Virus record (IMG/VR): IMGVR_UViG_3300005613_000351
Coordinates: 1-26,658 of that record
DNA from: a virus
DNA: 26,658 nt
Direction: 5' to 3' (one strand)
A model generated the notes under the pieces. The model was not told the origin of the DNA. It did no database searches and saw only the letters and a list, made by a program, of their open reading frames with translations. This document shows positions 2,481-25,314 of this stretch, in pieces. Every line of letters begins with the position of its first letter. The first letter of the stretch is position 1. A program made the position numbers and the translations under genes.

Positions 2481-3062
2481 ATGGCACAATCTTATTACAA
2501 AACTAAGTATGGAAGAAACTTTACTCCAGGTCAAGGATTGCCTGTTGTATCAACTGATCTTGATTCAGTAAGGACTTATCAGTTTGAAGTTAGATTCTTA
2601 GGTCTTCCTGCAACTGTAACTAATCAACAGGATCTAACTCTAGCTGCTAAGAAGGTTACTGGTTTAGAGATGGGTGTAGAAGATATCGTTGTTAGCCGTG
2701 TTAACGATAGATTACATTACCCTGGAAAGCCTTCTCCAGGAGAGCTTGTAGTTACCTTTGATAACTTATATCTTCGTCAAACTGCAAGTGATCTTTGGAA
2801 ATACTTTAAAAGGATTTATGATCCACTTACAGGTGAAATGACTCCATTTGCTGCTCCTGGAGGTGATCCAACTTCAACATTTAAAGTTCCAAAAATGGAG
2901 ATCGTCATGTTAGATAATACTTCAAGACCTCATTCAACCATTGAAGTATATGGCGTTTACCCAAGAAAATGGGCAGCATCTGAATTTAACTACGAAACTA
3001 ACTCATTCCACACATTAGATGTAAACTTCCGTTACGATTTCTTGGATATGTACAACCTTTGA
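2481..3062 (+). CDS. Tail tube protein (gp19-like)
   Basis: This protein polymerises into the inner tail tube through which DNA passes. At 193 aa it is somewhat longer than T4 gp19. Visible family features are a beta-rich body (TYQFEVRFLGLP near 31-43, GELVVTFDNLYLR near 87-100), a helix with LWKYFKRIYDP near 105-116, and a C-terminal half with a YGVYPRKWAASEFNY segment typical of gp19 relatives. AAGGA lies seven bases before the ATG. It follows the sheath gene directly and ends 20 bases before a strong terminator, so sheath and tube form the end of a late operon. Confidence 0.93.
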   Translation: MAQSYYKTKYGRNFTPGQGLPVVSTDLDSVRTYQFEVRFLGLPATVTNQQDLTLAAKKVTGLEMGVEDIVVSRVNDRLHYPGKPSPGELVVTFDNLYLRQTASDLWKYFKRIYDPLTGEMTPFAAPGGDPTSTFKVPKMEIVMLDNTSRPHSTIEVYGVYPRKWAASEFNYETNSFHTLDVNFRYDFLDMYNL

Positions 3063-3082
3063 TGATTTGAAAAAGTCAAAAC

Positions 3083-3123
3083 GGCTCAGTCTATTCTTGA
3101 ATAGTAGACTGAGCCACTTTTCT
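3083..3123 (+). terminator. Intrinsic terminator after the tail tube gene
   Basis: An 11-bp perfect stem, GGCTCAGTCTA (3083-3093) with TAGACTGAGCC (3105-3115), is followed by ACTTTTCT. An A-rich run upstream would also give a U-run on the other strand, so it may work both ways. The loop arms CTATTC and GAATAG (3091-3096, 3099-3104) can form an alternative inner stem. It isolates the tail genes from the large gene at 3134. Confidence 0.9.
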
Positions 3124-3131
3124 ATTATAAG
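3123..3131 (+). promoter_or_regulatory. Possible -10 element immediately before the 769-aa gene
   Basis: TATTATAAG lies directly after the terminator tail and two bases before the ATG at 3134. It could serve as TATTAT (3123-3128) or TATAAG (3126-3131). No clear -35 is seen, and there is no Shine-Dalgarno sequence before the gene. It resembles the other start-proximal TATAAT sites in the window but is a poorer match. Confidence 0.35.
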
Positions 3132-3133
3132 TT

Positions 3134-5443
3134 ATGGACTACTTTAACGAACTTCTTTATAGTTATAACAGATTAAAAAAGCGCACATTTAAGCTGCGTT
3201 ATATACAAGAAGAGACTGCTGAAGAATTAAAGAAAAGAGGTTTTCAATTTAATCCTGGATCAGCGGGGGCTGGTGGAAAATATAGAGGTTTTTATTATTC
3301 TTCAGATGGAAGTATAATTTATGTTTCAGAAGATCCTCCAGGAACTGAGAATAGACAATTTTTTCAGTTACCAGAAAAAGAAAGAGGAGAGACAGCACGA
3401 GAGAAGAGAACTGTACCAGGAGAAAAGCTATATGAAGAAATTCCAGAAGAGTATAGAGAAAATATAATATCTATAAATGGAATATCAGAAGCACTTTCAA
3501 AGTTTTGTGATCAGATAACACAAAAGTTTCAACAAACTAAAAAATATGTAAGCTGCGAACAGCAAATTCAAAATTACTTAAACTTTACTAATAAGTCTGG
3601 TGATTCTTTAGGTAAGATTTTTTCAAAAAGTGGAACTACTAAAGGAATTGAAATCACAAGAGATAAAGAAGGTAATATTGATGTAAAAATTTCAGAGGGT
3701 ATGGACACTGTTGATTCTGTCACTAGGCAGAAGATTTTAGATAATTTAAATTCTGTTTTAAAAGAGGTAACATCTAAAAGTCCAAACTGTGATAATATAA
3801 AAAATAAAGTGGCAAAAACTAAACATACCGAAGGAAAAGGTAAAGCAAAAGATAGATATATAATCTATGGTGCAGATAATACTACTGGAATTGCTTTACC
3901 AGCTACAGGTAGGATGAGTGCTTTAATATTTGATTCAATTAAAAAAGTATGTCCTGATCAAATAGAAAAACTTTATGATGATGCCATTAATCAAGCTCAG
4001 ATAAATGCTAAAAGTGGAACCTTAGCAGAACGTCTTTTTGCTTTAGGTAACGATATTTATCAACTCAGTAAAACTGGAGATCGTGAAAAGTCAAAAAAAT
4101 TAGTAACTCAAATAGCTCAAGCTTTACTAGAATCTGAAAAAATAACTCAATCTTTGGTAGATGCTTTTGATACTGATATGATTACTTTAGAAGAAGAATC
4201 AGGATATCAAACTCTTCTAGAGGATAATGAACTTTTTAAAAATAAACCTGAATTATCTAAACTATTAATTTTGTTTGTAAAAGCAAATCAAGATTTATAT
4301 AGAAAAATGGGAGCAGATAAGATAGTTCCTTATGGAGCTAAAAGCAAGCAAGGAGCTAGAGCAGATAATATGCTTGTTTATACAAGTGAGGATGCTGCTA
4401 AAAAAGCTGCAAGATCAGTTGGGTTTAGTGAAGAAGAAGGATCTGCATACGAAAAAACTAATATGAAAGATTTCTTAAAGAATCTTCCAGAAAATGTGAA
4501 AAGTAAAGTACAAGAAGAATTAAAAGAACTTGGACTAGATGAATCTAGTGAATTCTATACTTTAGGGCTCGGACAAAAATTATATATAAAATTTAAAGAT
4601 GCTAAACTAGGTGAGTACAACAGAGCTGAAAGAATGTTCATGGCAGTTTTAGGAACTATTCCTGAAAGTGATCCGTATTACAGTGATGATTTTAATGAAA
4701 AATCAAATGAATATCCAATAAGTGATGAGTCAATAGCTTTTTTTGAATCTTTAGAAAATGATCATCAATTAATAGAAAATGTTCTATTAGGGGGTGAAGA
4801 GTTTTTAAATTCAGAAGGAGCTAAAAGCCTTACTCCAGAAAGGTATAAGTTTGCACAGGAAATTCTAAAAGCTGGTTCTAACCCACAAGGAAATTTAGCA
4901 AATTTAGATCCAACAAACAAAGCTGATCAACAATATATAAAAGAATATATTCAAAGAAAAAATATAGTTGATAATCTTAGAAATAGGTTTGAAGATCCAC
5001 AAACTTCATCAGATACTTTTGATTCTGTATTAAGAATGGCTTTCTTAACTGGAGGTAATTCAAAAGATTTAATGCAGTTAGTTGTTTCTAAAGCAGATAA
5101 CTCAACAAGAGTATTCAGTCAAAATGCTATCTTTGAAGAACTCAGAGATAATAAAGATAAATATACTTTAGACTTTACAGAGTCTGGTGTTAAGTTTATT
5201 GATAAAGAAAGTGGACAATTAGTTGGTAGATTTAATCTATCAAGAACAGCTAGTAAAAGTGCCAAAGAGCCTTCTGCTAGAACTAGATTCGATTTTGAAA
5301 TATCTGATTGGGCTCAAACTAATATTGCTAAGGCTGAAGAGAGAAATATACCATCAATGGAAAATAGCAGTAAAATAAGTGAATTACTTGCAAATCAGAT
5401 TGAGTTATTAACTGAATTATTTAATCAAACCAAAAAGAATTAG
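3134..5443 (+). CDS. Large unidentified phage protein (769 aa)
   Basis: I do not recognise this protein. It is long, highly charged and mostly helical, with few Cys and no signal peptide or membrane segment. The N-terminus (LLYSYNRLKKRTFKLRYIQEE, about 7-27) is basic and followed by a Gly-rich GSAGAGGKYRGFYYS stretch near 42-56 that could be a short beta domain. The region 95-400 has long amphipathic helices, and the C-terminal 60 residues are helical and coiled-coil-like. In T4 the portal gene follows 18 and 19, but this protein does not look like a portal. A large internal virion protein or an injected protein are possible roles by position only. It lies between a terminator and a convergent nuclease gene, has no ribosome binding site, and overlaps the nuclease gene by 23 bases. 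Confidence 0.85.
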   Translation: MDYFNELLYSYNRLKKRTFKLRYIQEETAEELKKRGFQFNPGSAGAGGKYRGFYYSSDGSIIYVSEDPPGTENRQFFQLPEKERGETAREKRTVPGEKLYEEIPEEYRENIISINGISEALSKFCDQITQKFQQTKKYVSCEQQIQNYLNFTNKSGDSLGKIFSKSGTTKGIEITRDKEGNIDVKISEGMDTVDSVTRQKILDNLNSVLKEVTSKSPNCDNIKNKVAKTKHTEGKGKAKDRYIIYGADNTTGIALPATGRMSALIFDSIKKVCPDQIEKLYDDAINQAQINAKSGTLAERLFALGNDIYQLSKTGDREKSKKLVTQIAQALLESEKITQSLVDAFDTDMITLEEESGYQTLLEDNELFKNKPELSKLLILFVKANQDLYRKMGADKIVPYGAKSKQGARADNMLVYTSEDAAKKAARSVGFSEEEGSAYEKTNMKDFLKNLPENVKSKVQEELKELGLDESSEFYTLGLGQKLYIKFKDAKLGEYNRAERMFMAVLGTIPESDPYYSDDFNEKSNEYPISDESIAFFESLENDHQLIENVLLGGEEFLNSEGAKSLTPERYKFAQEILKAGSNPQGNLANLDPTNKADQQYIKEYIQRKNIVDNLRNRFEDPQTSSDTFDSVLRMAFLTGGNSKDLMQLVVSKADNSTRVFSQNAIFEELRDNKDKYTLDFTESGVKFIDKESGQLVGRFNLSRTASKSAKEPSARTRFDFEISDWAQTNIAKAEERNIPSMENSSKISELLANQIELLTELFNQTKKN

Positions 5444-5945
5444 GTTCTTTTTTTAGTAACTCATCAAATAAGTATATTTTATATTTTCTTGTTTTATCTT
5501 TATCTTCTATAGTTATACAATAATAAGCATTATCTATCCATATATGATAGGGTACTATGGCTAATGTTGGTTGTCTATCTTGTTTAAATATAACCATTGG
5601 ATATTTTCCGCACTTCTCAGAATCTTTCTCACATTGTTTTATAAATTTCCAAGTGTCGGAACTATCATTATATAAACTATATAAGTTTTCTTTGTTATAT
5701 CCTTTCTTACACTCTATACAATATTTAAAGTTTTTAGGGGTTATTAAATCTCCATATATCTTTAAATGATCTGGTAAGGAGTGTGTGGTGGCAAATGCAC
5801 CAGATCCAGGAGTTCTTGAAAATTCCTTGGTATCGAATCTATCATTGAACACCTTGGCAATGTTGCGCTCAAATGAGCTACCTTTTGTACGGCTATTAAC
5901 CTTCTTTTTCTTTTTTAAAGCAGAAATATCATAATCATCTTGCAT
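5421..5945 (-). CDS. PD-(D/E)XK nuclease, probable Holliday junction resolvase
   Basis: The 174-aa product has the layout of small phage and archaeal-type junction resolvases. These features are a basic N-terminus (ALKKKKKVNSRTKG), GSSFERNIAKVF with Glu26 as the helix-one acidic residue, RTPGSGAF (44-51), then GDLI with Asp66 and ECKK with Glu78 and Lys80. The Asp-x11-Glu-x-Lys core is the metal-binding catalytic signature of the fold. It would cleave branched DNA during recombination-dependent replication and before packaging. The gene faces its neighbours: it converges on the 769-aa gene and diverges from the gene at 5975. AGAGG lies about eight bases before the ATG on the minus strand. The nuclease fold is clear; the exact substrate is inferred from the RTPGSG-type match. 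Confidence 0.75.
   Translation of the reverse strand: MQDDYDISALKKKKKVNSRTKGSSFERNIAKVFNDRFDTKEFSRTPGSGAFATTHSLPDHLKIYGDLITPKNFKYCIECKKGYNKENLYSLYNDSSDTWKFIKQCEKDSEKCGKYPMVIFKQDRQPTLAIVPYHIWIDNAYYCITIEDKDKTRKYKIYLFDELLKKEPNSFWFD
5432..5454. terminator. Weak AT-rich hairpin between convergent genes
   Basis: AAAAAGAA (5432-5439) can pair with TTCTTTTT (5445-5452) across a five-base loop, with T-runs on the exit side. It sits at the overlap of the 769-aa gene and the minus-strand nuclease gene, where a terminator is expected. The stem has a single G-C pair, so it would be weak. Confidence 0.3.
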
Positions 5946-5968
5946 GATTCAAACCTCTAGACTATAAT
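5940..5968 (+). promoter_or_regulatory. Sigma70-like promoter for the 5975 gene, leaderless
   Basis: TTGCAT (5940-5945) is followed by a 17-base spacer and a perfect TATAAT (5963-5968). The ATG at 5975 is where transcription would be expected to start, six bases after the -10, and there is no Shine-Dalgarno sequence. The -35 overlaps the start codon of the opposing nuclease gene. On the minus strand the same stretch gives CTATTATAG, a possible -10 for the nuclease gene. Confidence 0.65.
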
Positions 5969-5974
5969 AGACAA

Positions 5975-6322
5975 ATGACAGAATCAAAAGAAGAAATTCA
6001 TTTCAATACGGATTCTTGGAAAGTTAGAATTAACGAAAGGCGAAACGGTAGAATGCAGTTACGATTTAATTTAGACAAGGATGAGGCCCTTGGTTTTAAG
6101 GGCTTTACTGAGATGGTCAAGCCAGAGCATGTCTCAGAAGAGATGTTCATCAAAAGTATCTTCCTTCAAGGTGTAAAAACTATGCAAGAGCAGCTTGCTG
6201 AACTTGTAAAGCAGTATGCTGAAGCTAACGCTGAAGAGTTAGAAAAAATGGGTGTTGAAGTCGTTGAAGGAAACGATGGAAGCGTGTCTTTAGAAGAAAC
6301 TTCATCTGACGAAGAAGAATGA
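5975..6322 (+). CDS. Acidic 115-aa hypothetical protein
   Basis: I do not recognise the family. The first 45 residues are strand-forming (SWKVRINERRNGRMQLRF), the middle is helical (about 50-95, with a QEQLAELVKQYAEANAEELEKM coiled-coil-like helix split over two turns), and the C-terminus is strongly acidic (SLEETSSDEEE). Such acidic tails occur in DNA mimics, in proteins that contact SSB or polymerase partners, and in chaperone-like phage proteins; nothing decides among these. It begins at an SD-less ATG next to TATAAT and overlaps the next gene by four bases, so it is co-translated with the thioredoxin-like protein. Confidence 0.8.
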   Translation: MTESKEEIHFNTDSWKVRINERRNGRMQLRFNLDKDEALGFKGFTEMVKPEHVSEEMFIKSIFLQGVKTMQEQLAELVKQYAEANAEELEKMGVEVVEGNDGSVSLEETSSDEEE

Positions 6323-6642
6323 AATTTAAAAATTTCAACGTAGTAAGATTACTAAAAGAGAATGACCTCTCGAAAGTCATTAAGACCCACAAGAAAAGCA
6401 AGGAAGACTTTAGTATTCTATTCGTTTCTTTGTGGGACCAAAACTCAGAGAAGTTATTGTCAAAACTATACGAGTCCTCACAAGAGGAGGCAGAAAAGAT
6501 CTACATTGTAGATAGCTTCAACATGCCACATAGTTTTGTAATCTACAATACTAAGGTAGTACCTGCTCTAGTAAACGTAAAAAAAGAAAATACCGAAGTT
6601 ATAGATTATCTTCCAAAAGTTTACGAGTACTTGGAAGCTTAA
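6319..6642 (+). CDS. Thioredoxin-fold-like protein lacking the CxxC motif
   Basis: This 107-aa protein has the order of elements of a thioredoxin. Strand FSILFVSLW (31-39) is followed by a helix where WCxxC would stand but reads LWDQNSEKLL. Then comes strand IYIVDSF (61-67), a VVPALVNV segment with Pro82 in the cis-proline position, and a closing helix VIDYLPKVYEYL. No cysteine is present, so it cannot be a thiol-disulfide reductase, and a binding or scaffold role is more likely. It overlaps the upstream gene by ATGA and its TAA stop shares the palindrome TTAA (6639-6642) with the stop of the minus-strand sigma factor gene. The fold assignment rests on pattern only. Confidence 0.6.
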   Translation: MKFKNFNVVRLLKENDLSKVIKTHKKSKEDFSILFVSLWDQNSEKLLSKLYESSQEEAEKIYIVDSFNMPHSFVIYNTKVVPALVNVKKENTEVIDYLPKVYEYLEA

Positions 6643-6989
6643 AGTAAATCATCATATTTCTTTACTTCTCGATCCATATAAGCCTCAATTTTCTCCCTAT
6701 ACCTTTTATCTTTGGTATAAAGAAACTTGAGGTTATTTAATATAACCGTCGTAAAATAGTTAAAGGCGGTTCCTTTCTTTGCTTTGAAGTTTTTTATAGT
6801 CTTTAATATTAGAGCAAAGCAGTCTTGTTTGGCGTCCTCGTCGTCCACGTTGAACTTAAATGATGCGAGTATGTTAGAAATTAATAAATCAAAAGTTTCT
6901 ACCAGTTCTTCTTCATAAGTTTCTGGATCTTCCTTGTATAATAGGATGAGGTCTTCAAACCTTTTGTTGTCGATATAGTTTTTACCCAT
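6639..6989 (-). CDS. gp55-like late-transcription sigma factor
   Basis: The 116-aa product matches the region-2 part of T4 gp55-type sigma factors, which bind core RNA polymerase and read TATAAATA late promoters. The visible core is DDEDAKQDCFALILKTIKNF (about 49-68), KKGTAFNYFTTVILNNLKF (71-89), then a basic YTKDKRYREKI helix; AF-YFT followed by a basic helix is the characteristic core of this group. It is shorter than T4 gp55 (about 185 aa), lacking most of the C-terminal extension that contacts the sliding clamp in T4. It stands alone on the minus strand between plus-strand genes. Its ATG has no Shine-Dalgarno sequence and lies two bases from a shared palindromic ATTATAAT. A TATAAATA site at 128-135 provides a plausible target. 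Confidence 0.78.
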   Translation of the reverse strand: MGKNYIDNKRFEDLILLYKEDPETYEEELVETFDLLISNILASFKFNVDDEDAKQDCFALILKTIKNFKAKKGTAFNYFTTVILNNLKFLYTKDKRYREKIEAYMDREVKKYDDLL

Positions 6990-6991
6990 AC

Positions 6992-6999
6992 ATTATAAT
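6992..6999. promoter_or_regulatory. Bidirectional palindromic -10 element ATTATAAT
   Basis: ATTATAAT is its own reverse complement, giving TATAAT on both strands (plus 6994-6999; minus 6997-6992). It fills the 12-base gap between the divergent starts of the sigma factor gene (6989, minus) and the polymerase gene (7002, plus). In both directions the start codon begins two bases after the hexamer. No -35 is evident on the plus side, and neither gene has a Shine-Dalgarno sequence. Confidence 0.55.
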
Positions 7000-7001
7000 A
7001 G

Positions 7002-8012
7002 ATGGATAATCTAGATAAGTTATTCGCAAATTCAGAGTTAAGGTGCAGCAACGAGGTATGTAATGGCTGCTCAATCTTAAATAAGGATAAACCAGCACAC
7101 TCCATAATGGACTATGAGAATAAATCTCAGTCCGATATCCTCTTTCTATCAGACTCTTTGAACTACAAGTTCGGATCCGCAAAAGCTTTTAACGCACAGG
7201 AGCTTGCTCTAATTGAGGAAAGCTGTAAGGAAAAGTTTGAAACCGCTGCGTCTGTAAAATGTCCCTCTGTTAGAGAAGCGGATATGAAGACTGCTGATTT
7301 CCACAAATGCAGAAACCACTTGGAGCAAACGATTCTAAAGATCCGTCCTAAGCTGGTATTTACCTGTGGAAACCTCGCTATGAAGATGCTTATCAAGAAA
7401 AGCGGAATCAATTCAAAGAGGGGAAACGCATATGAATATGAGATTGAAGATCATAAGTGCGTGGTAGTTCCAATCTATCATCCCTTTTCAGTAATCAAGG
7501 AACCTAGGTTTAAGCATCTCTTTCAGAAAGACATTTCTAACGGATTAGATACTTACATTTATGGAAATACTAACAAGCTAGAACTTAATTATGATTTGCT
7601 AATGACATTAGAAGAGGTTAAGGCTTGTAGGCGTATTTTGAAAGATACTGATAAAACTCTTGCTGCTGATGTTGAGACAACAGGTTTAGATTTTACGAGA
7701 CATAAAATTACTACAGTATCTTTTACTACCCACGATAATACATGGGTTATACCAATAGATCATAAAGACTCACCTTTTAAAGATGATCTTGATGATGTTC
7801 TTGATTGTTTGAGGGATATTCTACAAAATCCAAAAAACAAGAAGGTCATGCACAATGCGAAGTTCGATTTGAAGTTCTTTTATAAGTATGGAATTGAGCC
7901 AGTCAACGTCTATGATACTAAGTTGATGTACCATACTCTTGACGAGAACTCTCCAAAGGGTTTGATGGATCTTGTTAAAATTTACTTCCCACACGAACTT
8001 AGTAGACTCTAA
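7002..8012 (+). CDS. Family A DNA polymerase part 1: UDG-like domain plus 3'-5' exonuclease N-half
   Basis: Residues 1-190 resemble family 4 (iron-sulfur) uracil-DNA glycosylases: Cys15, Cys20 and Cys23, then Cys87 and Cys103 in VKCPSVREADMKTADFHKCR, then IYHPFSVIKEPRFK with His160-Pro161. The usual catalytic GEAPG motif is replaced by SDSLN (50-54), so glycosylase activity is doubtful. Residues 205-336 are the DEDDy exonuclease of family A polymerases, with Exo I DVETTGLD (Asp223, Glu225) and Exo II HNAKFDLKFF (Asp289). The frame stops at 8012 before Exo III, which is encoded by the next ORF. The TAA overlaps the next ATG (TAATG). The SD-less ATG at 7002 lies two bases after a TATAAT. UDG-like domains joined to family A polymerases are known in other phages. 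Confidence 0.85.
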   Translation: MDNLDKLFANSELRCSNEVCNGCSILNKDKPAHSIMDYENKSQSDILFLSDSLNYKFGSAKAFNAQELALIEESCKEKFETAASVKCPSVREADMKTADFHKCRNHLEQTILKIRPKLVFTCGNLAMKMLIKKSGINSKRGNAYEYEIEDHKCVVVPIYHPFSVIKEPRFKHLFQKDISNGLDTYIYGNTNKLELNYDLLMTLEEVKACRRILKDTDKTLAADVETTGLDFTRHKITTVSFTTHDNTWVIPIDHKDSPFKDDLDDVLDCLRDILQNPKNKKVMHNAKFDLKFFYKYGIEPVNVYDTKLMYHTLDENSPKGLMDLVKIYFPHELSRL

Positions 8013-8497
8013 TGCTTACAGTAAATGATCCCTCAAAGGTTGATTGGGAGAACATGCCTCTGCATGAAGTTGCAAGAGGTAATGCGATGGATACTTATTT
8101 CACGCTTAAATTGTTTGACCTGATCAATGAAAAGATTCAAAACGAGGAAAATAATCTTCCAGTTCTAGTTGATCACGTTCTTTCTCCTGGTCTTTCTGTG
8201 TTTGCTAAGGCTGAGTTTAGAGGAATCAATATTGATCCTAAAGAACTTGATGAGACAGGAAGACTTCTGAAATCTCATATTGTAAATCTAGAGGATGATT
8301 TACATGAGAGTGTAGGTCTGATTCCTACAGATAATGTATATTCCACTAAATGTTTGATTGAAATCTTCTATACTAGAGAAGGTGCGCTGGAGCTTTATCC
8401 TCCTGCTCGTACAGGTAAAGGAGCACCATCAACTGATGCTGATACTATTAAACTTTTGCTTGAACTCATTGAAGAGGAGTTAGAACGTCGTGGGTAA
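8012..8497 (+). CDS. Family A DNA polymerase part 2: end of exonuclease and start of polymerase region
   Basis: The 161-aa product continues the polymerase in another frame. ARGNAMDTYFTLKLFD (about 22-37) is the Exo III region with the third aspartate (D-xx-xT-L pattern), although the tyrosine usually four residues before the Asp is Gly here. The segment LSPGLSVFAKAEFRGINID is the usual lead-in to the polymerase part, and PSTDADTIKLLLEL matches the family A stretch before the thumb. It lacks its own ribosome binding site; the ATG overlaps the previous stop, so it would be translated by re-initiation. At its 3' end GAGGAG (8474-8479) serves the next ORF. Alone it has neither a complete exonuclease nor any polymerase catalytic motif. 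Confidence 0.8.
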   Translation: MLTVNDPSKVDWENMPLHEVARGNAMDTYFTLKLFDLINEKIQNEENNLPVLVDHVLSPGLSVFAKAEFRGINIDPKELDETGRLLKSHIVNLEDDLHESVGLIPTDNVYSTKCLIEIFYTREGALELYPPARTGKGAPSTDADTIKLLLELIEEELERRG

Positions 8498-9614
8498 ATG
8501 GGATAGCAGACTTAGAGAAAAGTCTATTGCGGTACAACACCTTAAGAGTAAGAAAAAAGAAGATCTTGTTCGAGCAAGAAACTTCATGACGAAGCTTCTT
8601 GAGCTTCGCAACGTAGACAAACTTTACAAGACTTATGTTAAGGGTGTTAAGAAGTCTATTGAATACAATGAGAAGAATAAAGTATTCGTAGATTTCCGAA
8701 TGGAAGGAACGACCTCAGGACGTTTGAGCTGTGCTGGATATAAGAATGGTAAGCATCCTATGGGCGTATCCTTCCACACTCTTCCTAGAGAGAAGGTAAA
8801 CAATATTCGTAACTCTTTTGTAGCTCCAAAGGATTGGGTATTCTTGCAGGCGGACTATTCTGCTATGGAGCTGCGAGTTCTTGCCCACCTCTCTAAAGAA
8901 GAGAACATGCGTAAAGCATTTCGAGAAGGGTTAGATCTTCATACATATTCTGCACAGCTTACATTCAAACAAGATAGGACTAGCAAAGAGCAAAGACAGC
9001 TTGCTAAGACAACATCATTCTTGATTGTGTATGGAGGAGGAGCGTTTAACCTTTCTCAGACTTTCGGATTGTCTGTGGATGAAGCACAAAGGATTATTGA
9101 TTCTTACTTTGAAGCTTTCCCTGCTATTCCTGCATACATGGATTTCATTGGAAATCACATTCTAGAGAATGAGTACGCTTATACGATCTTTGGCAGACGT
9201 AGACACTTGATTGATGTAAGAAGTAAAGATAATAAAGTAGTTCAAAGAGCCTTACGTCAAGGAATAAACTTTACTATTCAAAGTACAGCCTCAGACGTTC
9301 TTCTTATTGCAATGATTTACATTGCGAGAGAGATGGAACATAGAGGAATGAGAGGCTTTCCAGTAGCTACTGTTCACGACTCAATTGAGATTGTCTGCCC
9401 TAAGGATGAAGTAGAGGAGACTCTTACCATTATGAGAAAACATATGGTCGAGTATCCAGTTATTAAAGAACTGTTTGGGATTGAGTTTGAGGTTCCTTTG
9501 GAGATTGAAGCAGAAATAGGACCTTCATTTGGAAAAGCAAAAGCAGTTGGCTATAATGAATATGGGATGCCAATTATAACAAAGGAAGAACTTAATGAAG
9601 CTGTATATTCATGA
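8490..9614 (+). CDS. polA: Family A DNA polymerase part 3: polymerase domain
   Basis: The 374-aa product holds the whole catalytic polymerase domain. It has the GTTSGRLS segment (73-80), motif A DYSAMELR (Asp122), and O-helix motif B RQLAKTTSFLIVYG (Arg169, Lys173, Phe177, Tyr181, corresponding to E. coli Pol I Arg754, Lys758, Phe762 and Tyr766). It also has QSTASDVLL (264-272) and motif C VHDSI (His296-Asp297), where Ser replaces the usual Glu. Phe at the 762 position is the wild-type-like form of this lifestyle-linked residue. It starts at GTG 8490, ten bases after GAGGAG, and overlaps the preceding ORF by GTGGGTAA. The thumb begins in part 2, so the enzyme probably needs the other two parts. 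The 3' end overlaps thyX by 20 bases. Confidence 0.92.
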   Translation: MGKWDSRLREKSIAVQHLKSKKKEDLVRARNFMTKLLELRNVDKLYKTYVKGVKKSIEYNEKNKVFVDFRMEGTTSGRLSCAGYKNGKHPMGVSFHTLPREKVNNIRNSFVAPKDWVFLQADYSAMELRVLAHLSKEENMRKAFREGLDLHTYSAQLTFKQDRTSKEQRQLAKTTSFLIVYGGGAFNLSQTFGLSVDEAQRIIDSYFEAFPAIPAYMDFIGNHILENEYAYTIFGRRRHLIDVRSKDNKVVQRALRQGINFTIQSTASDVLLIAMIYIAREMEHRGMRGFPVATVHDSIEIVCPKDEVEETLTIMRKHMVEYPVIKELFGIEFEVPLEIEAEIGPSFGKAKAVGYNEYGMPIITKEELNEAVYS

Positions 9615-18862: not shown

Positions 18863-18895
18863 GAGGGAGGTCTTTTGATCTCCCTCTTCTTTTTT
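18863..18895 (+). terminator. Intrinsic terminator after the lipoprotein gene
   Basis: GAGGGAGGTC (18863-18872) pairs with GATCTCCCTC (18877-18886) through ten base pairs including one G-T wobble, with a TTTT loop. It is followed by TTCTTTTTT (18887-18895), which runs directly into the ATG at 18896. It ends the replication operon. The left arm contains GGGAGG, so the hairpin also hides a Shine-Dalgarno-like sequence. Confidence 0.88.
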
Positions 18896-20116
18896 ATGGA
18901 TACTAGAGAAGTACAATCAATTAGCGTTCAAAACACCATTGACTGGAAAACACAAGACGGGTTTCCAGGATTAGGTCGTAAACTTAGGATACTTGCTGCT
19001 CCTGCTAACGAGGGAGGTTGTGCTCAATACAGAGTTATTCAACCTTATAAAAAGCTTGCAGAGTTGTATCCTAATGTAGTAGAAGTTAGGTTTGACCTAA
19101 ACCCATTAGGTGCAGATACTAAAACTGCCCGTTGGATTCCTGATTGGGAATTCGAGAATCTAAAGTGGTGTGATATTGTAGTTCTAAATAACCTTTCAAA
19201 CTTTGGTGCTAACTATACTGCGAGAATTGTAGGTAAAGCAAAAGAGTTTGGTAAGTTTGTACACTACGACACCGATGATCTTCTTACTAATCTTTATGAA
19301 GGTCACAGATTGTATAACGTATACAAGGAACAAAAGCTGGGTGAGATTACTAAGTTCATTTATAGCAACTCTGATCTTACAACAGTAACACAAAATAAGT
19401 TTGCAGAAAGGGTTATGCCTTTCATAAGTAAACATTTGACTGTAGTTCGCAACTGTGTAGATTACAAACTACCTGCTTGGAATCATCCAAAAAAAGAAAC
19501 CAAGTTTTGTAGATTTGGATGGGCAGGAGGTATTCACCACGAACAAGACGTTCGCTACTTCTCTGGTGTTCCTCATCTTGTAAATCAAAGAGTAGGTGTT
19601 AAAAACTGTCGCTGGGATCTTTATGGCGCTCCTCCTCCAAACGTGGATAAATCAGATTGGCAGCATGAGGTTTGGAAGAATTACCACAACATAATCTTCG
19701 CTGGGATGAAAGGTCAAAGAAACTATACAGTTAATTGTGCTAAAGCTATTGAAGACTATGGAGTTTTCTTCTCTTTGATGGATGTAGCTCTAGCTCCTCT
19801 AGAACCCAATGAGTTCAATGACTCAAAGAGTGAGATTAAAGTAGCAGAAGCAGGAAGATACAAGATACCTTTGGTAGCCTCTAATGTAGGTTGCTATGAT
19901 GAATGGATAATTAATGGAGAAACAGGCTTCCTTATTGATCCTGCCAAGGGAAGGTCTGAATGGGTTAAGGTGCTGACGCGAGTAGCCAAGGATAAAAAAC
20001 TAAGGGAAACTATGGGAGAAAATCTCCATCAAGTTACAGAGGTTAACTTTGACCTTAACAAGAGAGTGCATGATAGACTTGATGTATACAAGGAGCTTTT
20101 GAAAATTGAAAGTTAG
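18896..20116 (+). CDS. Glycosyltransferase, GT-B/GT4-like
   Basis: The 406-aa product has a GT-B fold pattern. N-terminal Rossmann-like strands begin RKLRILAAPANEGGCAQYRV, followed by FVHYDTDDLL near 118-127. The C-terminal domain carries FGWAGG (a strand plus Gly-rich loop), LYGAPPP, VALAPLEPNEFNDSKSEIKVAE with the Glu-x7-Glu-like donor-binding element, and SNVGCYDEWIINGETGFLIDP. Such enzymes transfer nucleotide sugars to glycans or lipids. I prefer ATG 18896; an in-frame TTG at 18875 would add seven residues encoded by the terminator tail. No Shine-Dalgarno sequence precedes the ATG. It opens a tightly overlapping glycan operon. Confidence 0.88.
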   Translation: MDTREVQSISVQNTIDWKTQDGFPGLGRKLRILAAPANEGGCAQYRVIQPYKKLAELYPNVVEVRFDLNPLGADTKTARWIPDWEFENLKWCDIVVLNNLSNFGANYTARIVGKAKEFGKFVHYDTDDLLTNLYEGHRLYNVYKEQKLGEITKFIYSNSDLTTVTQNKFAERVMPFISKHLTVVRNCVDYKLPAWNHPKKETKFCRFGWAGGIHHEQDVRYFSGVPHLVNQRVGVKNCRWDLYGAPPPNVDKSDWQHEVWKNYHNIIFAGMKGQRNYTVNCAKAIEDYGVFFSLMDVALAPLEPNEFNDSKSEIKVAEAGRYKIPLVASNVGCYDEWIINGETGFLIDPAKGRSEWVKVLTRVAKDKKLRETMGENLHQVTEVNFDLNKRVHDRLDVYKELLKIES

Positions 20117-20891
20117 GATCGTAAGTGGCTGGTCCAATCCAGGAGGAAGCACTATTCACCATATCAATTTAACTAATCTTTTAAATGATAATGGTTATGA
20201 TTGCATTTTCTATGGCCCTCATGAATGGCATATGGATAAATGTAAGGCAGATCATATAAATAGATTCTACACAACAAAAGAAGATATATTGATCAGTCAT
20301 TTTATAAAACTCCCACCAATGCCTGCAAAGAAGCATATATTGAGTTGTCATGAGACAAATTTATTTCCTCTGAAGCAGCTTCCTCTTCAAAACTACGATG
20401 TAATTCACTTTGTCAGCCAGTATCAAAAAGAATGGCATGGTGTGGACCACCCTAGTGTAGTTATCCCAGGGATCATTGATGACATCTCTTGGTCTAATCC
20501 AAATAATGGAACGGCTGGGGTTGTGGGTAGTATTGATGAGCACAAGCAGACTCATGTTTCTATTCAGAGAGCCTTCGACGACGGATATAATAAAGTTCTA
20601 TTATTTGGACAGATAAACGATAAGCCTTACTTTGATAGTGAGATCGAACCCCTACTACGCACAGGGAAGGTCAGCATCAAAAACTATTGTGAAGATAAAG
20701 AGGAGATGTACGGTAGCGTCGAGGCAGTATATCATTCATCAAAAAGAGAGTGCTTACCTACTGTGCAAGGCGAGTGCTTGAAAGCAGGTATTCCTTACTT
20801 TGGTATGCAGCGCAATATGCGAGGACCAGAAGATTACCTGTTCGATAATCAACAGATACTAGACAAATGGAGAGGTATTTTAAGTGAGTGA
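20106..20891 (+). CDS. Glycosyltransferase-like protein (GT-B fold, 261 aa)
   Basis: The N-terminal part has MKVRIVSGWSNPGGSTIHHINLTNLL, the typical GT4 opening with a Gly-rich loop after the first strand. The C-terminal part has VVIPGIID, a donor-domain opening TAGVVGSIDEHKQTHVSI, KVLLFGQIN, and HSSKRECLPTVQGECLKAGIP, which matches the Glu-containing donor motif of the family. At 261 aa it is shorter than most GT4 enzymes, so it is a compact version. It overlaps the previous gene by 11 bases and the next by eight. The acceptor and donor cannot be told from sequence. Confidence 0.75.
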   Translation: MKVRIVSGWSNPGGSTIHHINLTNLLNDNGYDCIFYGPHEWHMDKCKADHINRFYTTKEDILISHFIKLPPMPAKKHILSCHETNLFPLKQLPLQNYDVIHFVSQYQKEWHGVDHPSVVIPGIIDDISWSNPNNGTAGVVGSIDEHKQTHVSIQRAFDDGYNKVLLFGQINDKPYFDSEIEPLLRTGKVSIKNYCEDKEEMYGSVEAVYHSSKRECLPTVQGECLKAGIPYFGMQRNMRGPEDYLFDNQQILDKWRGILSE

Positions 20892-21603
20892 ACTTGTGCA
20901 GACTCTGTGGATTGGCGATACCTTATCACCTGTAGAAAGGATGTGCCTAAGTTCCTTTGTTAAAGTAAATGGAGGAATAGTTCTATACACTTACTCTGAC
21001 ATTAAGAATGTTCCTGAGGGGGTAGAAGTTCGTGATGGTAATGATATTCTAGATAAGAGCGAGATCTTTTCCTACAAGGTGGGAGAGGGTAAAGGTTCCG
21101 TGTCTGCCTTCTCAAACTGCTTCCGATACAAGATGCTTCTGGAGCAGGGAGGCTGGTGGGTTGACACGGATGTTCTATGCCTACAACCTCTGCCAGAAGG
21201 GGATGACTATGTTTTCTCTACTGAGTATCAGCAAGACGGAACGCCTCATGTAGCTACAGGAATCATCAAGTGTAAAGCAGGTTCTGATATCATGAAAGAG
21301 TGCTTCGACTACAGCATGACTCAAGATAGAGAGAAACTAGCATGGGGTCAGATCGGCCCAAAGCTCCTTCACAGAAAAGTTCAAGAGCTAGGTATGGAGG
21401 AGTATAGAGTAGATCCCAAAGAGTATAATCCCCTCTTCGGTCCTGAGGTTGGGAAGCTGTTCGACCCTAGGATCGACCTTGAATATCCAGAGTCCAAAAC
21501 TGTTCATCTGTGGAATGAAATCTGGAGAAGATTCGGTATAGATAAAAATGCCACTTACCATCCTGATAGCTTCATAGAAAAAAACAAGAGGAAGTATTTA
21601 TGA
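20884..21603 (+). CDS. GT32-like glycosyltransferase with DXD motif
   Basis: This 239-aa GT-A enzyme has the opening VQTLWIGDTLSP, AFSNCFRYKMLLEQGGWWVDTDVLCL (75-100, given in two halves around GG) with the metal and sugar-nucleotide ligands Asp94 and Asp96. It also has ATGIIKCKAGSD and a C-terminal TVHLWNEIWRR that often closes the family. The GGxWxDxD pattern is characteristic of the alpha-glycosyltransferases related to Och1 and the TcdA/TcdB sugar-binding region. Translation starts at a GTG overlapping the previous stop. It probably adds a single sugar to a host or virion glycan. Confidence 0.85.
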   Translation: MSELVQTLWIGDTLSPVERMCLSSFVKVNGGIVLYTYSDIKNVPEGVEVRDGNDILDKSEIFSYKVGEGKGSVSAFSNCFRYKMLLEQGGWWVDTDVLCLQPLPEGDDYVFSTEYQQDGTPHVATGIIKCKAGSDIMKECFDYSMTQDREKLAWGQIGPKLLHRKVQELGMEEYRVDPKEYNPLFGPEVGKLFDPRIDLEYPESKTVHLWNEIWRRFGIDKNATYHPDSFIEKNKRKYL

Positions 21604-22526
21604 AATTACTAATGATCAAAGACTGCGAAACTCCGAAAGAGAAAAACTACAGGCTTAACGCCTACGATAATTTTTCTAAGAAGATAAAGGAGGTTCCAAA
21701 TCTAGAGGTGGTATCTTACGGTCTGGGACACAAGGATTATTCCCCAGACAAAACTATACAAGATGTGATCTCCCTGCTCTACGGTGATGAGTGCCCAGAT
21801 GTTATTTATATCTGGAGACCTGAAGTATTAGCAGCTTCTAATTTCTATAGTGTGCCTTGCAAAAAGTATGCATTTTGGACAGACACCCATATTACAAATC
21901 CTGTGGTAACGCAAGGGATGCTCAAGCACTCTATTGATCTTGATTTAGTTCTTCACAACTACACATATGAGCTAGATTCATTCAAGGCTACAATCGCTGC
22001 TAAGGAGTATATTCACTTTCCTTGTTGGAGTAGTGATATTTACAAATATGATGGAAGGCAGAAGCCTATTGATTTCCTACTTACGGGAACATACACACCT
22101 GAATATGAGTTTAGGGCGAGGTATAGAAATCTACAATTAGAGGGCACCATTGTTGACAGGCTGCATCAGCTTACGGACACCGCTGAGGACAATAACCTGT
22201 TTAGGGATAATCTACTTTCTTCTAAATTTAGTTTGCTTGATGGGGGAGTGAATGGTAGAGTGGTTCCTCGATACTTTGAGTCGTGCCTAGCAAAATCTGT
22301 CGTGGTTTCACCAGACTTGGGAGAAGAATTAGCTTCTGATGGTTTTAAGGATGGTGTGAATTGCGTGCTATTTGATAGGCGAGATAGTTATGAAAATATC
22401 TCTGCTAAAATAAATGAAGCTAAAAGTAACTGGCAAGTTCTTTCAGAGAACGCTTACGACTTAGCGTATAATAATCATACAACAGACAAGAGAATACAGA
22501 AGCTCTTGGAGGTGCTTAATAAATGA
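21600..22526 (+). CDS. CgeB-like glycosyltransferase family protein
   Basis: The 308-aa product looks like the CgeB/GT1-type proteins found in surface-sugar clusters. Features are MKLLMIKDCETPKEKNYR at the start, CPDVIYIWRPEVL (65-77), KYAFWTDTHI (89-98), LDLVLHNYTYEL, then a second domain with PIDFLLTGTYTPEYEFRARY, SKFSLLDGGVNGRVVPRYFE (200s) and ACL-x-SVVVSPDLGEE. The RVVPRYFESCLAKSVVVSP part corresponds to the donor-binding region that often reads RxFExxAxGxPxLT. It overlaps its neighbours by four bases on each side. Activity is inferred from this pattern and from the cluster. Confidence 0.75.
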   Translation: MKLLMIKDCETPKEKNYRLNAYDNFSKKIKEVPNLEVVSYGLGHKDYSPDKTIQDVISLLYGDECPDVIYIWRPEVLAASNFYSVPCKKYAFWTDTHITNPVVTQGMLKHSIDLDLVLHNYTYELDSFKATIAAKEYIHFPCWSSDIYKYDGRQKPIDFLLTGTYTPEYEFRARYRNLQLEGTIVDRLHQLTDTAEDNNLFRDNLLSSKFSLLDGGVNGRVVPRYFESCLAKSVVVSPDLGEELASDGFKDGVNCVLFDRRDSYENISAKINEAKSNWQVLSENAYDLAYNNHTTDKRIQKLLEVLNK

Positions 22527-22981
22527 ATCCACATGATGAGTTGCTACACGAGACACTTAAAGTGCTCGGAGATAAAAACTGGGTAGAGATCTCATATGTA
22601 AATCCTTTTGGTTTTAGAGAGGTATCCTACCCAACACGAATGAATGTGTCGATCACAGAATTTTTAGAAGATTCTGTTGCTATTGATACAAATATTTATG
22701 ACACTTGTGTTCTTCACATATTACTAGGCTGCGGTGTCAAATTTGATATACTGGAAAAAGTTATTAATAAGTGTTTAGATACTTTCTCTAGCGTTGTGGT
22801 TTTAGAGCACGATAGGACCTCATCTGATTGGAGTAACGATTCCATAAGAAGGGAGCACTCGATTGATAATTGTCTATCAGGAGAAGAATTACTTAAAGTT
22901 GCTGATAAAAATAACTGGAATTATTCCGACATACTTTACATGGCTAATAATAGAAACTTAATTGTGGAGTTGAGTCGATGA
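22523..22981 (+). CDS. Hypothetical protein, weakly methyltransferase-like (152 aa)
   Basis: I do not recognise this protein with confidence. Its middle and end (YDTCVLHILLGCGVKFDILEK at 59-79, then CLDTFSSVVVLEHD at 84-97, and SGEELLKVADKNNW) resemble the second half of class I SAM-dependent methyltransferases, where the fourth strand is followed by a helix and then an lvi-E strand. A glycine-rich SAM-binding motif I is missing. It may be a degraded or partial methyltransferase or an unrelated Rossmann-like protein. It lies between glycosyltransferase and methyltransferase-like genes with ATGA overlaps. Confidence 0.6.
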   Translation: MNPHDELLHETLKVLGDKNWVEISYVNPFGFREVSYPTRMNVSITEFLEDSVAIDTNIYDTCVLHILLGCGVKFDILEKVINKCLDTFSSVVVLEHDRTSSDWSNDSIRREHSIDNCLSGEELLKVADKNNWNYSDILYMANNRNLIVELSR

Positions 22982-23772
22982 CTTATCCTGATATTACAAG
23001 CGTTCTCCCTCAAGGTGTCTTCAGTGAGATACCCTCTCACGGAGCTTCATTCTCAAACCTAAGAGATGTATACTTGGGAACAGCAGACGACAGTAACTTG
23101 TCACAAGACCTGTTAGGAAAAATTTCAGAGTCTTATGAAACTTCATCTACTTCAGTTTACGCTAGTTGCGGAGGTTTCTTAAGTCTAAACTTACTAAATG
23201 CTTTAGTAGGAAAAAAGGTAAAAAGTATTTCTTTTTTTGATATAAATAAACACTCTGTAGAATTTTCTAAAAGCGTAGTTAATCTAATAAAAGCCTCCAA
23301 TAGTGTGCAAGACTTCATACAAAATTATTTTATGATCTCTGTGGGTAGGATAGCAGATCGCTACTTCTTCACTCCCACACTACAAGAGGATAGAGACAGT
23401 ATGTTCTCTAAAAATAAAGAACATTATAATGAAGTATCACAACTGATATTTGAAGCCATATCAAAATCTCCTTATGATCGGGATCAACTTTACATAAACG
23501 GATTCATGCATGTAGGTGGTTGTGGCGTTGGCAGAGTGAGTATTTACCCAGAAGGCAAACACTATAGCACCTCAAACTCCCTTGCTGTAGGGGATGGTTG
23601 GCTAAAGAATGATGAAGTATTTTTAAAGATGAGAGATTGGCTTGCAGCTACAGATATAAATCACTTTGCTATTGATATTAAAGATCTGATCACAGAGCCT
23701 CAGGACATTGTATTTGCTTCAAATATTGATGTTTGGACTCCATTTAGTTGTCACGGTAAGGTATTTCCTTGA
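22978..23772 (+). CDS. SAM-dependent methyltransferase-like protein (264 aa)
   Basis: Residues 58-100 contain a Rossmann-type opening, SVYASCGGFLSLNLL-x-ALVGKKVKSISFFDINKHS, in which FFDIN may supply the acidic ribose ligand of SAM methyltransferases. IVFASNIDVWTP near the end (about 244-255) looks like the strand-four motif. The central part (110-180) is helical and has no family I recognise. The long segment GFMHVGGCGVGRVSIYPEGKH is distinctive but unassigned. The reaction is unknown; context suggests modification of a sugar or lipid. It overlaps both neighbours by four bases. Confidence 0.6.
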   Translation: MTYPDITSVLPQGVFSEIPSHGASFSNLRDVYLGTADDSNLSQDLLGKISESYETSSTSVYASCGGFLSLNLLNALVGKKVKSISFFDINKHSVEFSKSVVNLIKASNSVQDFIQNYFMISVGRIADRYFFTPTLQEDRDSMFSKNKEHYNEVSQLIFEAISKSPYDRDQLYINGFMHVGGCGVGRVSIYPEGKHYSTSNSLAVGDGWLKNDEVFLKMRDWLAATDINHFAIDIKDLITEPQDIVFASNIDVWTPFSCHGKVFP

Positions 23773-24173
23773 AGCGCATTTACCAGAAAGATAAACTACT
23801 GCACCTTGTTTGCACACCAGAGGACTTTTCTAAAGAAAGAACAGATATAGTTGATGCAAATCAGTTTATACAATGTTCATTTCTTAGGATGGAAAATGGT
23901 AAAACTTTTAGACCACACAAACACATTTGGAAGGAGCCAAGTTTTACTAAAACTATAGCCCAAGAAAGTTGGGTGGTAATCAGGGGTAGTGTAAAAGTGC
24001 ATTTTTTTGATACAGAAATGCAGCTTTTGGAAACACACATTCTTCAAGCAGGGGATGCTTCTTTTACTTTAGAAGGTGGGCATACCTACGAAATTCTAGA
24101 AGATGATACTCTAGTTTATGAGTACAAGACTGGACCATACGAAGGCCAAGAGAAAGACAAGGTGTTTGAATGA
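23769..24173 (+). CDS. Cupin-fold protein of the sugar-locus type (WbuC-like)
   Basis: A single cupin barrel of 134 aa is seen. Cupin motif 1 is FRPHKH (about 49-54) and QESWVVIRGSVKVHFFD (65-81), motif 2 is LQAGDASFTLEGGHTYEILED with His, and the tail is YEYKTGPYEGQEKDK. The PHKH and Gly-His residues would hold a metal. Proteins with this VxxGxVKV-xx-FD and GPYxGxEKDK layout are common in O-antigen and nucleotide-sugar loci; the reaction is usually unknown. Translation starts at a TTG overlapping the previous TGA. The context agrees with a role in glycan synthesis. Confidence 0.75.
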   Translation: MKRIYQKDKLLHLVCTPEDFSKERTDIVDANQFIQCSFLRMENGKTFRPHKHIWKEPSFTKTIAQESWVVIRGSVKVHFFDTEMQLLETHILQAGDASFTLEGGHTYEILEDDTLVYEYKTGPYEGQEKDKVFE

Positions 24174-24697
24174 AACTTCATTTAGGTTGTGGAAAAAGAG
24201 ATTTTGGTGAGGATTGGATTCATGTAGATATGGCAGACTTTCCTCATATTGCATCGAAGGATGTCACGAGGCTACCTTATGATAACGATACCTGCGATCT
24301 GATATATGCTAGTCATCTTTTAGAATACTTTGATAGAGTTGAAGTAGTCGAAGTGCTTCAAGAATGGAAGCGTGTTTTGAAACCATCAGGAGTATTGAGG
24401 CTGGCTGTTCCTGATTTTGAAAAGCTGTGTAGCTTGTACACAAGTGGACACGGCATAGAAAGGGTGCTAGGGCCGTTATATGGAAAGTGGGGAACTCCTC
24501 CAGTGTACCATAAAACTACTTATGATTTCTCTTCTCTTTCAGAGCTACTACACAGTGTAGGATTTCAAGATGTTGCTAGGTATGATTGGAGAGACACAAA
24601 GCACTCTCATATAGATGATCACTCTCAAGCATACTTTCCACACATGGATAAAGAAAATGGAATGCTTATTAGTTTAAATGTTGAGGCGGTGAAATGA
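24170..24697 (+). CDS. Class I SAM-dependent methyltransferase
   Basis: At 175 aa this is a compact class I methyltransferase. Motif I is LHLGCGKRDF (3-12), WIHVDM (16-21) supplies the acidic ribose ligand, TRLPYDNDTCDLIYASHLLEYF (34-55, motifs II-IV, read in two halves) follows, and LKPSGVLRLAVPDFEKL is the usual post-motif strand. This is the pattern of methyltransferase 11-like enzymes found in LPS and capsule loci. The substrate is unknown, but a sugar or lipid-linked glycan is likely from the neighbours. It overlaps neighbours by four bases on both sides. Confidence 0.85.
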   Translation: MKLHLGCGKRDFGEDWIHVDMADFPHIASKDVTRLPYDNDTCDLIYASHLLEYFDRVEVVEVLQEWKRVLKPSGVLRLAVPDFEKLCSLYTSGHGIERVLGPLYGKWGTPPVYHKTTYDFSSLSELLHSVGFQDVARYDWRDTKHSHIDDHSQAYFPHMDKENGMLISLNVEAVK

Positions 24698-25296
24698 GTT
24701 TCGAGACAGTAAAAAAGTTTGAAGATGCCATAGCAGAGTTTTATGGTGCTCCTTATGCGGTGGCTACTGATTGTTGTACTCACGCCATCGAGCTATGTCT
24801 TCGATATACAAAACCTGAGCACCCTGTCATGATACCCAATAGAACCTATATCTCCATACCTTTCACACTAGAGAAGTTAGGGCTAGATTGGCAGTTTCAC
24901 AGCATTCCTTGGAGTAACTACTACTCTATTTTAGACACAAATATCATTGATGCAGCAGTATTTTGGAAAGAAGGCGGATATGAGCCTAATACCTTCATGT
25001 GCCTTAGCTTTCAATATCAGAAGCATCTTAGCTTGGGGAAGGGCGGGATGATCCTGACAGATGACAAAGAAGCAGCCGAGGAATTGAAGAAGATGTCTTA
25101 TGACGGCAGAACGCCCGACAAGCCGTGGAGAGAGCAGAACATCTCAAGTATAGGCTATCATTATTACATGACCCCAGAGACAGCACAGAAGGGCTTAGAT
25201 GCCTTAGAGGAAGCCAAACACCGCCAACCTAGGAAGTGGGTGTGGGAAGACTGGCCCGACCTAAGAAACATGGAAGTATTTAGATCTAATAACTAG
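24694..25296 (+). CDS. Half-length DegT/DnrJ/EryC1/StrS-type aminotransferase
   Basis: The fold-type I PLP enzyme signature is present: FYGAPYAVATDCCTHAIEL (16-34) corresponds to the usual ATxSGTxAL segment, IPNRTYIS to the wP-F pattern, and SFQYQKHLSLGKGG (105-118) to the SF-x3-K-x-(x)-GEGG motif with Lys110 as the PLP-binding lysine. The usual DegT length is 370-400 aa; this is 200 aa, with shorter strands between motifs and no C-terminal small domain. The cofactor site seems kept but the substrate-binding C-terminal part is missing, so it may act with a partner or on a small sugar substrate. In the same operon a GDP-mannose dehydratase follows, which could feed it. Confidence 0.75.
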   Translation: MSFETVKKFEDAIAEFYGAPYAVATDCCTHAIELCLRYTKPEHPVMIPNRTYISIPFTLEKLGLDWQFHSIPWSNYYSILDTNIIDAAVFWKEGGYEPNTFMCLSFQYQKHLSLGKGGMILTDDKEAAEELKKMSYDGRTPDKPWREQNISSIGYHYYMTPETAQKGLDALEEAKHRQPRKWVWEDWPDLRNMEVFRSNN

Positions 25297-25303
25297 TATC
25301 GAC

Positions 25304-25309
25304 TATAAT
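25304..25309 (+). promoter_or_regulatory. TATAAT -10 element before the GDP-mannose dehydratase gene
   Basis: GACTATAATA lies in the 18-base gap after the aminotransferase gene, five bases before the ATG at 25315. No Shine-Dalgarno sequence and no clear -35 are present, so the transcript would be leaderless or nearly so. Confidence 0.5.
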
Positions 25310-25314
25310 ATACC

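Follow-up and report, generated by a model that had tools for sequence, protein, structure and literature searches.

A T4-like phage lineage appears to have permanently divided its family A DNA polymerase (PolA) into three genes, the products of which assemble into one polymerase. We place the probability of this reading at roughly 0.8; the assembly is inferred, with no biochemical or proteomic evidence. Specifically, analysis of a phage fragment from IMG/VR (the window, meaning the whole stretch of 26,658 bases) and of its relatives demonstrates three separate open reading frames (ORFs) with constant breaks, which evolve under purifying selection and encode the sole PolA or PolB detected in long records. 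The split is best read as an ancient, fixed three-subunit family A replicase, again with assembly as an inference. We also consider it probable, at somewhat lower confidence, that this is an obligate three-subunit replicative PolA of a deep T4-like clade, in which the proofreading site and the thumb are each built from two chains and terminal extensions serve in docking.

Results

A polymerase laid out in three reading frames

The polymerase locus of the window comprises the following features.

6994–7001, plus strand: promoter-like box TATAATAG, immediately preceding the ORF1 ATG; it lies within the 12 bases that separate ORF1 from a divergent sigma-like gene
7002–8012, plus strand: ORF1, 336 aa, ATG to TAA, frame 0; UDG-like domain and first part of the 3′-5′ exonuclease, with Exo I (D223/E225) and Exo II (N285/D289)
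8006–8014, plus strand: junction 1, a 7-base joint opening that ends in the TAATG stop/start overlap
8012–8497, plus strand: ORF2, 161 aa, frame 2, ATG inside TAATG; Exo III (D27), the connector from exonuclease to polymerase, and the beginning of the thumb
8474–8497, plus strand: junction 2, a GAGGAG Shine-Dalgarno sequence in ORF2 codons, then the GTGGGTAA start/stop overlap
8490–9614, plus strand: ORF3, 374 aa, frame 0, GTG inside GTGGGTAA; N-terminal extension of ~33 residues, rest of the thumb, palm and fingers, with motif A (DYSAMELR), motif B (R169, K173) and motif C (VHD297)

The ORF list and the sequence bear out the coordinates, order and frames that the initial annotation had given for this polymerase. 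The first break lies, as described there, between Exo II (ORF1 N285 and D289) and Exo III (ORF2 D27), and the second ahead of polymerase motifs A–C; it is likewise correct that no single product carries a full DEDD exonuclease, the D, E and D being in ORF1 and the last D in ORF2. The overlaps amount to 1 base (ORF1/ORF2) and 8 bases (ORF2/ORF3). Of the two stretches said to be open jointly in both frames, that at junction 2 (8484–8497) was recovered as proposed, whereas that at junction 1 is 7 bases long (8006–8012) and not 9, being limited by the ORF2 frame stops TAG at 8000–8002 and 8003–8005. A start codon is indeed present in each: ATG in TAATG, and GTG in GTGGGTAA with GAGGAG at 8474–8479. 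The argument that an indel artifact would usually leave long read-through tails also held, as single indels simulated in the window ORFs gave a median joint opening of 47 bases. The simulated opening was ≤9 bases in 4.2% of cases and ≤14 bases in 10%, and only 1.3% combined an opening of ≤14 bases with an ATG or GTG inside it.

The three products tile one Klenow-like enzyme

In Pfam searches, ORF1 matched UDG at residues 83–168 (PF03167, E = 2.6e-7) and DNA_pol_A_exo1 at residues 208–329, where the profile stops at position 128 of 173, and ORF3 matched DNA_pol_A (PF00476, E = 1.7e-78). ORF2 had no convincing Pfam family match, so annotation pipelines are likely to miss it. Its family profile nevertheless aligns with residues 159–294 of the Klenow chain (5e-12), a span that opens shortly ahead of Exo III and runs into the thumb, while ORF1 aligns with chain residues 6–131 and ORF3 begins to match at chain residue 302. 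Together, the three pieces thus cover a single Klenow-like enzyme with an added UDG domain. ORF3 D122, R169, K173 and D297 are invariant, and family A motifs A, B and C are all present. The polymerase domain is, however, not contained in a single polypeptide, because the thumb is shared between ORF2 and ORF3.

The exonuclease residues provide the main argument that the ORF1 and ORF2 products assemble. D223, E225 and D289 of ORF1 and D27 of ORF2 are invariant in the split relatives, and ORF1 and ORF2 must be taken together to give the full set of four DEDD acids; D27 has been kept in ORF2 even though a lone Exo III would be useless. Proofreading may nonetheless be altered or lost, because the Exo III tyrosine, four residues before the last Asp (ORF2 residue 23), is Gly in all 25 split members of a joint alignment in which 45 of 60 fused homologues have Tyr. 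The two junctions also differ in how they compare with the fused homologues. Across junction 1, the Exo II–Exo III distance is 74 residues in both groups, which indicates a clean cut without added residues. Across junction 2, the corresponding thumb distance is 62 residues in split versus 24 in fused proteins, so that ~38 residues were gained at the new termini.

Structures were predicted for ORF1 alone and for ORF3 alone. In the predicted ORF3 structure, the palm and fingers superimpose on the Bst fragment (Z 27.9, rmsd 1.4 Å, 246 residues). The model has two N-terminal helices and a mean pLDDT of 76, with residues 48–100 poorly defined; this weak prediction would fit a missing partner and equally well a shallow alignment. 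The UDG part of the predicted ORF1 structure resembles the family 4 UDG fold (Z 17.3, rmsd 3.0 Å, 167 residues). The usual glycosylase catalytic motif was not evident by eye, and the domain may therefore be inactive.

Relatives share both breaks

A single-sequence search of IMG/VR with ORF3 returned no match, and relatives were retrieved from that collection by an alignment-based search together with a YGGGAFN DNA pattern. This yielded 96 loci whose ORF3 homologue is 45–60% identical; 74 of them have all three parts, and clustering at 97% of ORF2 reduced these to 53 nonredundant relatives. Further loci came from an ORF2 search, many on contigs already counted. In a phage collection, neither ORF1 nor ORF3 had a match at ≥60%, the best for ORF3 being ~35%. 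Wherever a relative has the parts concerned, the protein is interrupted at these same two positions, and none is fused. The initial annotation had named the same layout in related contigs as a test, which these 53 relatives pass, and its preference for a genuine three-polypeptide enzyme gains support accordingly, with assembly still inferred. Throughout the relatives, ORF2 encodes 157–165 aa from an ATG, except in the broken copy L153, where it is interrupted (L153:2396–3874, 92 aa plus a 47-aa piece) through either decay or an assembly indel.

Contiguous homologues are known here only among distant relatives (22–38% identity), UDG-exo-PolA proteins in which ORF1-like and ORF3-like parts share one frame (71 loci). 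None of the loci examined was a two-piece intermediate. In an ORF3 tree, a branch with support 100 separates the 49 split rows from the fused outgroups; the tree was made by a quick method with long outgroup branches, and its root was not inferred. One split ancestor is the simplest account, because bacterial PolA and the other phage UDG-PolA proteins examined are fused. The clade is deeply diverged, and no tree member is more than 58% identical to the window. Median dN/dS was 0.061 for ORF1, 0.067 for ORF2 and 0.046 for ORF3, which denotes strong purifying selection (Nei–Gojobori, pairs with dS 0.2–1.2; only 9 to 24 pairs were available, many near saturation).

Junctions vary in sequence and carry initiation signals

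Most relatives have a TAATG overlap at junction 1, with TGATG or a difference of a few bases in some, and in 22 of the 53 this junction holds an insert of 173–2403 bases, many with opposite-strand genes. The inserted genes include small opposite-strand genes, a glycosyltransferase (L134) and a membrane-protein-like gene (L145). An opposite-strand lipoprotein-like gene was also observed in L196, and several inserts (L177, L146, L196, L156, L191 and others) have a near-constant length of 486–502 bases. The junction 2 overlap is 8 bases (GTGGGTAA) in most relatives and 4 (ATGA), 1, 20, 23 or 26 elsewhere, classes that differ in frame relation, and a kinase-like gene lies inside junction 2 of L013–L015. 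Mapped on the tree, the junction 1 insert requires a minimum of 9 changes, and the junction 2 overlap class a minimum of 10.

Among overlap-class members, 22 of 32 have a Shine-Dalgarno tetramer ahead of ORF2 (expected 8.1 ± 2.0), and 39 of 47 have one ahead of ORF3 (expected 21.7 ± 2.8). The expectations were obtained by redrawing codons synonymously, and the members are related and so not independent trials; the window's own junction 1 has no clear Shine-Dalgarno sequence. Of the 22 loci with an insert in junction 1, 18 have a TATATAG box or a near match to it immediately ahead of the ORF2 ATG. The translational coupling proposed initially thus describes the commonest arrangement, with conserved Shine-Dalgarno sequences, but it is not obligatory, given these boxes.

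In most of ~45 relatives, a TATAATAG/TATTATAG box likewise lies 0–5 bases upstream of the ORF1 ATG, in a gap of ~12–15 bases between divergent genes. We infer that the ORF1 and ORF2 boxes are promoters that give leaderless mRNAs, and the ORF1 box region (6990–7001 in the window) may be a compact bidirectional promoter of this kind. The small divergent gene (6639–6989, minus strand) has a weak match to sigma-70 region 2 (E = 0.003) and is perhaps a gp55-like late sigma factor.

The phages are T4-like and the split enzyme appears to be their only replicase

A contig of 130,604 bases (G002) from the Prochlorococcus single-cell assembly AG-409-P03 shares the three-gene layout, its junction 1 being occupied by an ORF on the opposite strand, and 19 window ORFs have matches on it in conserved order. 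It carries T4-type genes (Portal_T4, 6e-78; phrog_138 major head, 2e-78; phrog_207 protease; terminase), its head protein being ~30% identical to those of cyanophages, and sheath similarity was found in the window. The split clade is a large, uncultured T4-like phage group known mostly from metagenomes. The single-cell assembly suggests Prochlorococcus as a host; it does not prove this, as it is one genome, and relatives may infect others. In the window, a run of glycosyltransferase-, methyltransferase-, aminotransferase- and sugar-nucleotide dehydratase-like genes was noted at 18875–26280 from reading the translations only.

Each of nine long clade records encodes one PolA. No match to PolB (PF00136) was detected in seven of these nine (59.7–130.6 kb), in a search that also took in two records not shown to be in the clade; an undetected polymerase cannot be excluded, because no long clade record is shown to be complete. 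In this T4-like lineage, PolA appears to have replaced the usual T4-type PolB.

Discussion

Four other accounts of the locus have to be weighed, two of which would leave a single chain. One metagenomic contig cannot by itself rule out that an ordinary single-chain enzyme has been interrupted by indels from sequencing or assembly, given that ~4–10% of random indels leave overlaps this short, but the relatives refute this explanation beyond reasonable doubt: both breaks, with conserved starts, recur in a single-cell genome and in dozens of contigs assembled separately. Very improbable, too, is one gene decoded with programmed frameshifting at both junctions, the second of which would restore the original frame. 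Such decoding would be consistent with frames that overlap by a few bases and with the lack of missing residues at junction 1. It is contradicted by junction 2 overlaps of 8, 20, 23 and 26 versus 4 and 1 bases, a class for which the tree requires 10 or more changes, and by the genes lodged in junction 1 of 22 of the 53 relatives and in junction 2 of L013–L015. The varying frame at junction 2 and the inserts cannot be explained by a conserved shift site but can be by separate initiation, and it is the start codons and Shine-Dalgarno signals that are conserved instead. Of the two possibilities that the initial annotation had kept, frameshifting is thus disfavoured and assembly error refuted.

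The third account accepts the separate pieces and denies that they form one enzyme: ORF3 would polymerize alone, deficient in proofreading, with ORF1 and ORF2 in other roles, or another polymerase would replicate the genome. That all polymerase motifs lie within ORF3, and that the Exo III tyrosine is replaced by Gly in all split members examined, speak for it. We nevertheless regard it as unlikely, without dismissing it, because the four exonuclease acids are invariant across ORF1 and ORF2, these two ORFs have a dN/dS little higher than that of ORF3, the three genes stay ordered and close together despite the inserts, and half the thumb is absent from ORF3. The remaining account concerns origin and is compatible with our preferred explanation of function: the breaks may have been made by a homing endonuclease or an intron, as in Aeh1 nrdA or phage 25 gene 43, a known route to phage genes-in-pieces (PMC2988022), and both breaks do fall between conserved blocks. 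This remains doubtful, for no Rfam intron was found in the window, L177, L204, L178 or L015, and among the five inserted genes searched in Pfam there were a kinase-like gene, a glycosyltransferase and three without a match, but no homing endonuclease. An ancient endonuclease that has since been lost cannot be excluded in so deeply diverged a clade.

Under the three-subunit reading, ORF1 would be started from its own promoter, and ORF2 and ORF3 would be translated from the same mRNA by termination–reinitiation, at TAATG and at GAGGAG...GTGGGTAA, respectively. Where a gene occupies junction 1, ORF2 would usually be started from its own box. The products are envisaged to assemble such that the exonuclease active site is formed by ORF1 with ORF2 and the thumb by ORF2 with ORF3, with the extra residues on both sides of junction 2 possibly docking the pieces. 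Most likely, the clade descends from a single-chain UDG-exo-PolA phage enzyme that replaced the usual T4-type PolB.

Such single-chain enzymes are found in Lysinibacillus phage LysYB1, Manatee Spring Caudoviricetes MW202455 and Bacillus phage phi18 (Okubovirus), with the same domain order and 22–38% identity. Unlike the split enzyme, each is one polypeptide, and most have the normal Exo III tyrosine and lack the extra residues at the thumb junction. The UDG and exonuclease parts of ORF1 also align, weakly, with the solved phiLo family A polymerase (9qhs), for which a literature search found no relevant paper. Outside the clade, Weizmannia phage Youna2 (L367, 2965–6234) has its polymerase annotated as ORFs 2965–4986 and 5668–6234 with a small ORF between them, perhaps another split or intron-bearing PolA.

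Polymerases in pieces have precedents. In the OM43 phages MEP401 and MEP402, PolA lies in separate ORFs, an arrangement conserved in most of the group (PMC10580990); there, however, a single break just before motif A (corresponding to about residue 117 of the window ORF3) is occupied by a small ORF, and gp13 begins at the exonuclease, with no UDG-like domain seen. In Aeromonas phages 25 and 44RR, gp43A and gp43B are, as in the window, a T4-like replicase in pieces, but of an unrelated polymerase family and with one break and two pieces; the phage 25 proteins, a split PolB, copurify and are active (PMC2988022). Similarly, NrdA of Aeh1, a different enzyme, assembles from its split chains into a functional form; its gene was split by the homing endonuclease mobE (PMC2988022). 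Rhodothermus phage RM378, also T4-related, has DNA-polymerase-like parts annotated on p012, p024 and p092, with the genes far apart. It was rejected as a sharer of this split, as p012, p024 and p025 show no convincing similarity to ORF1–3 (p092 was not compared).

Two-piece phage polymerases are thus already known, whereas a three-piece PolA is apparently unreported. Our literature search found no paper on the clade, on a three-piece PolA or on an exonuclease site divided between chains, and no mention of AG-409-P03; this is weak evidence, since most subscription journals were not covered.

Family A polymerases are textbook single-chain enzymes. With its PolA in three pieces and an active site spanning two chains, this phage clade is a natural test of the extent to which a polymerase can be subdivided. 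Its natural split points could be used for engineered split polymerases, and the role of each part could be addressed by omitting one subunit.
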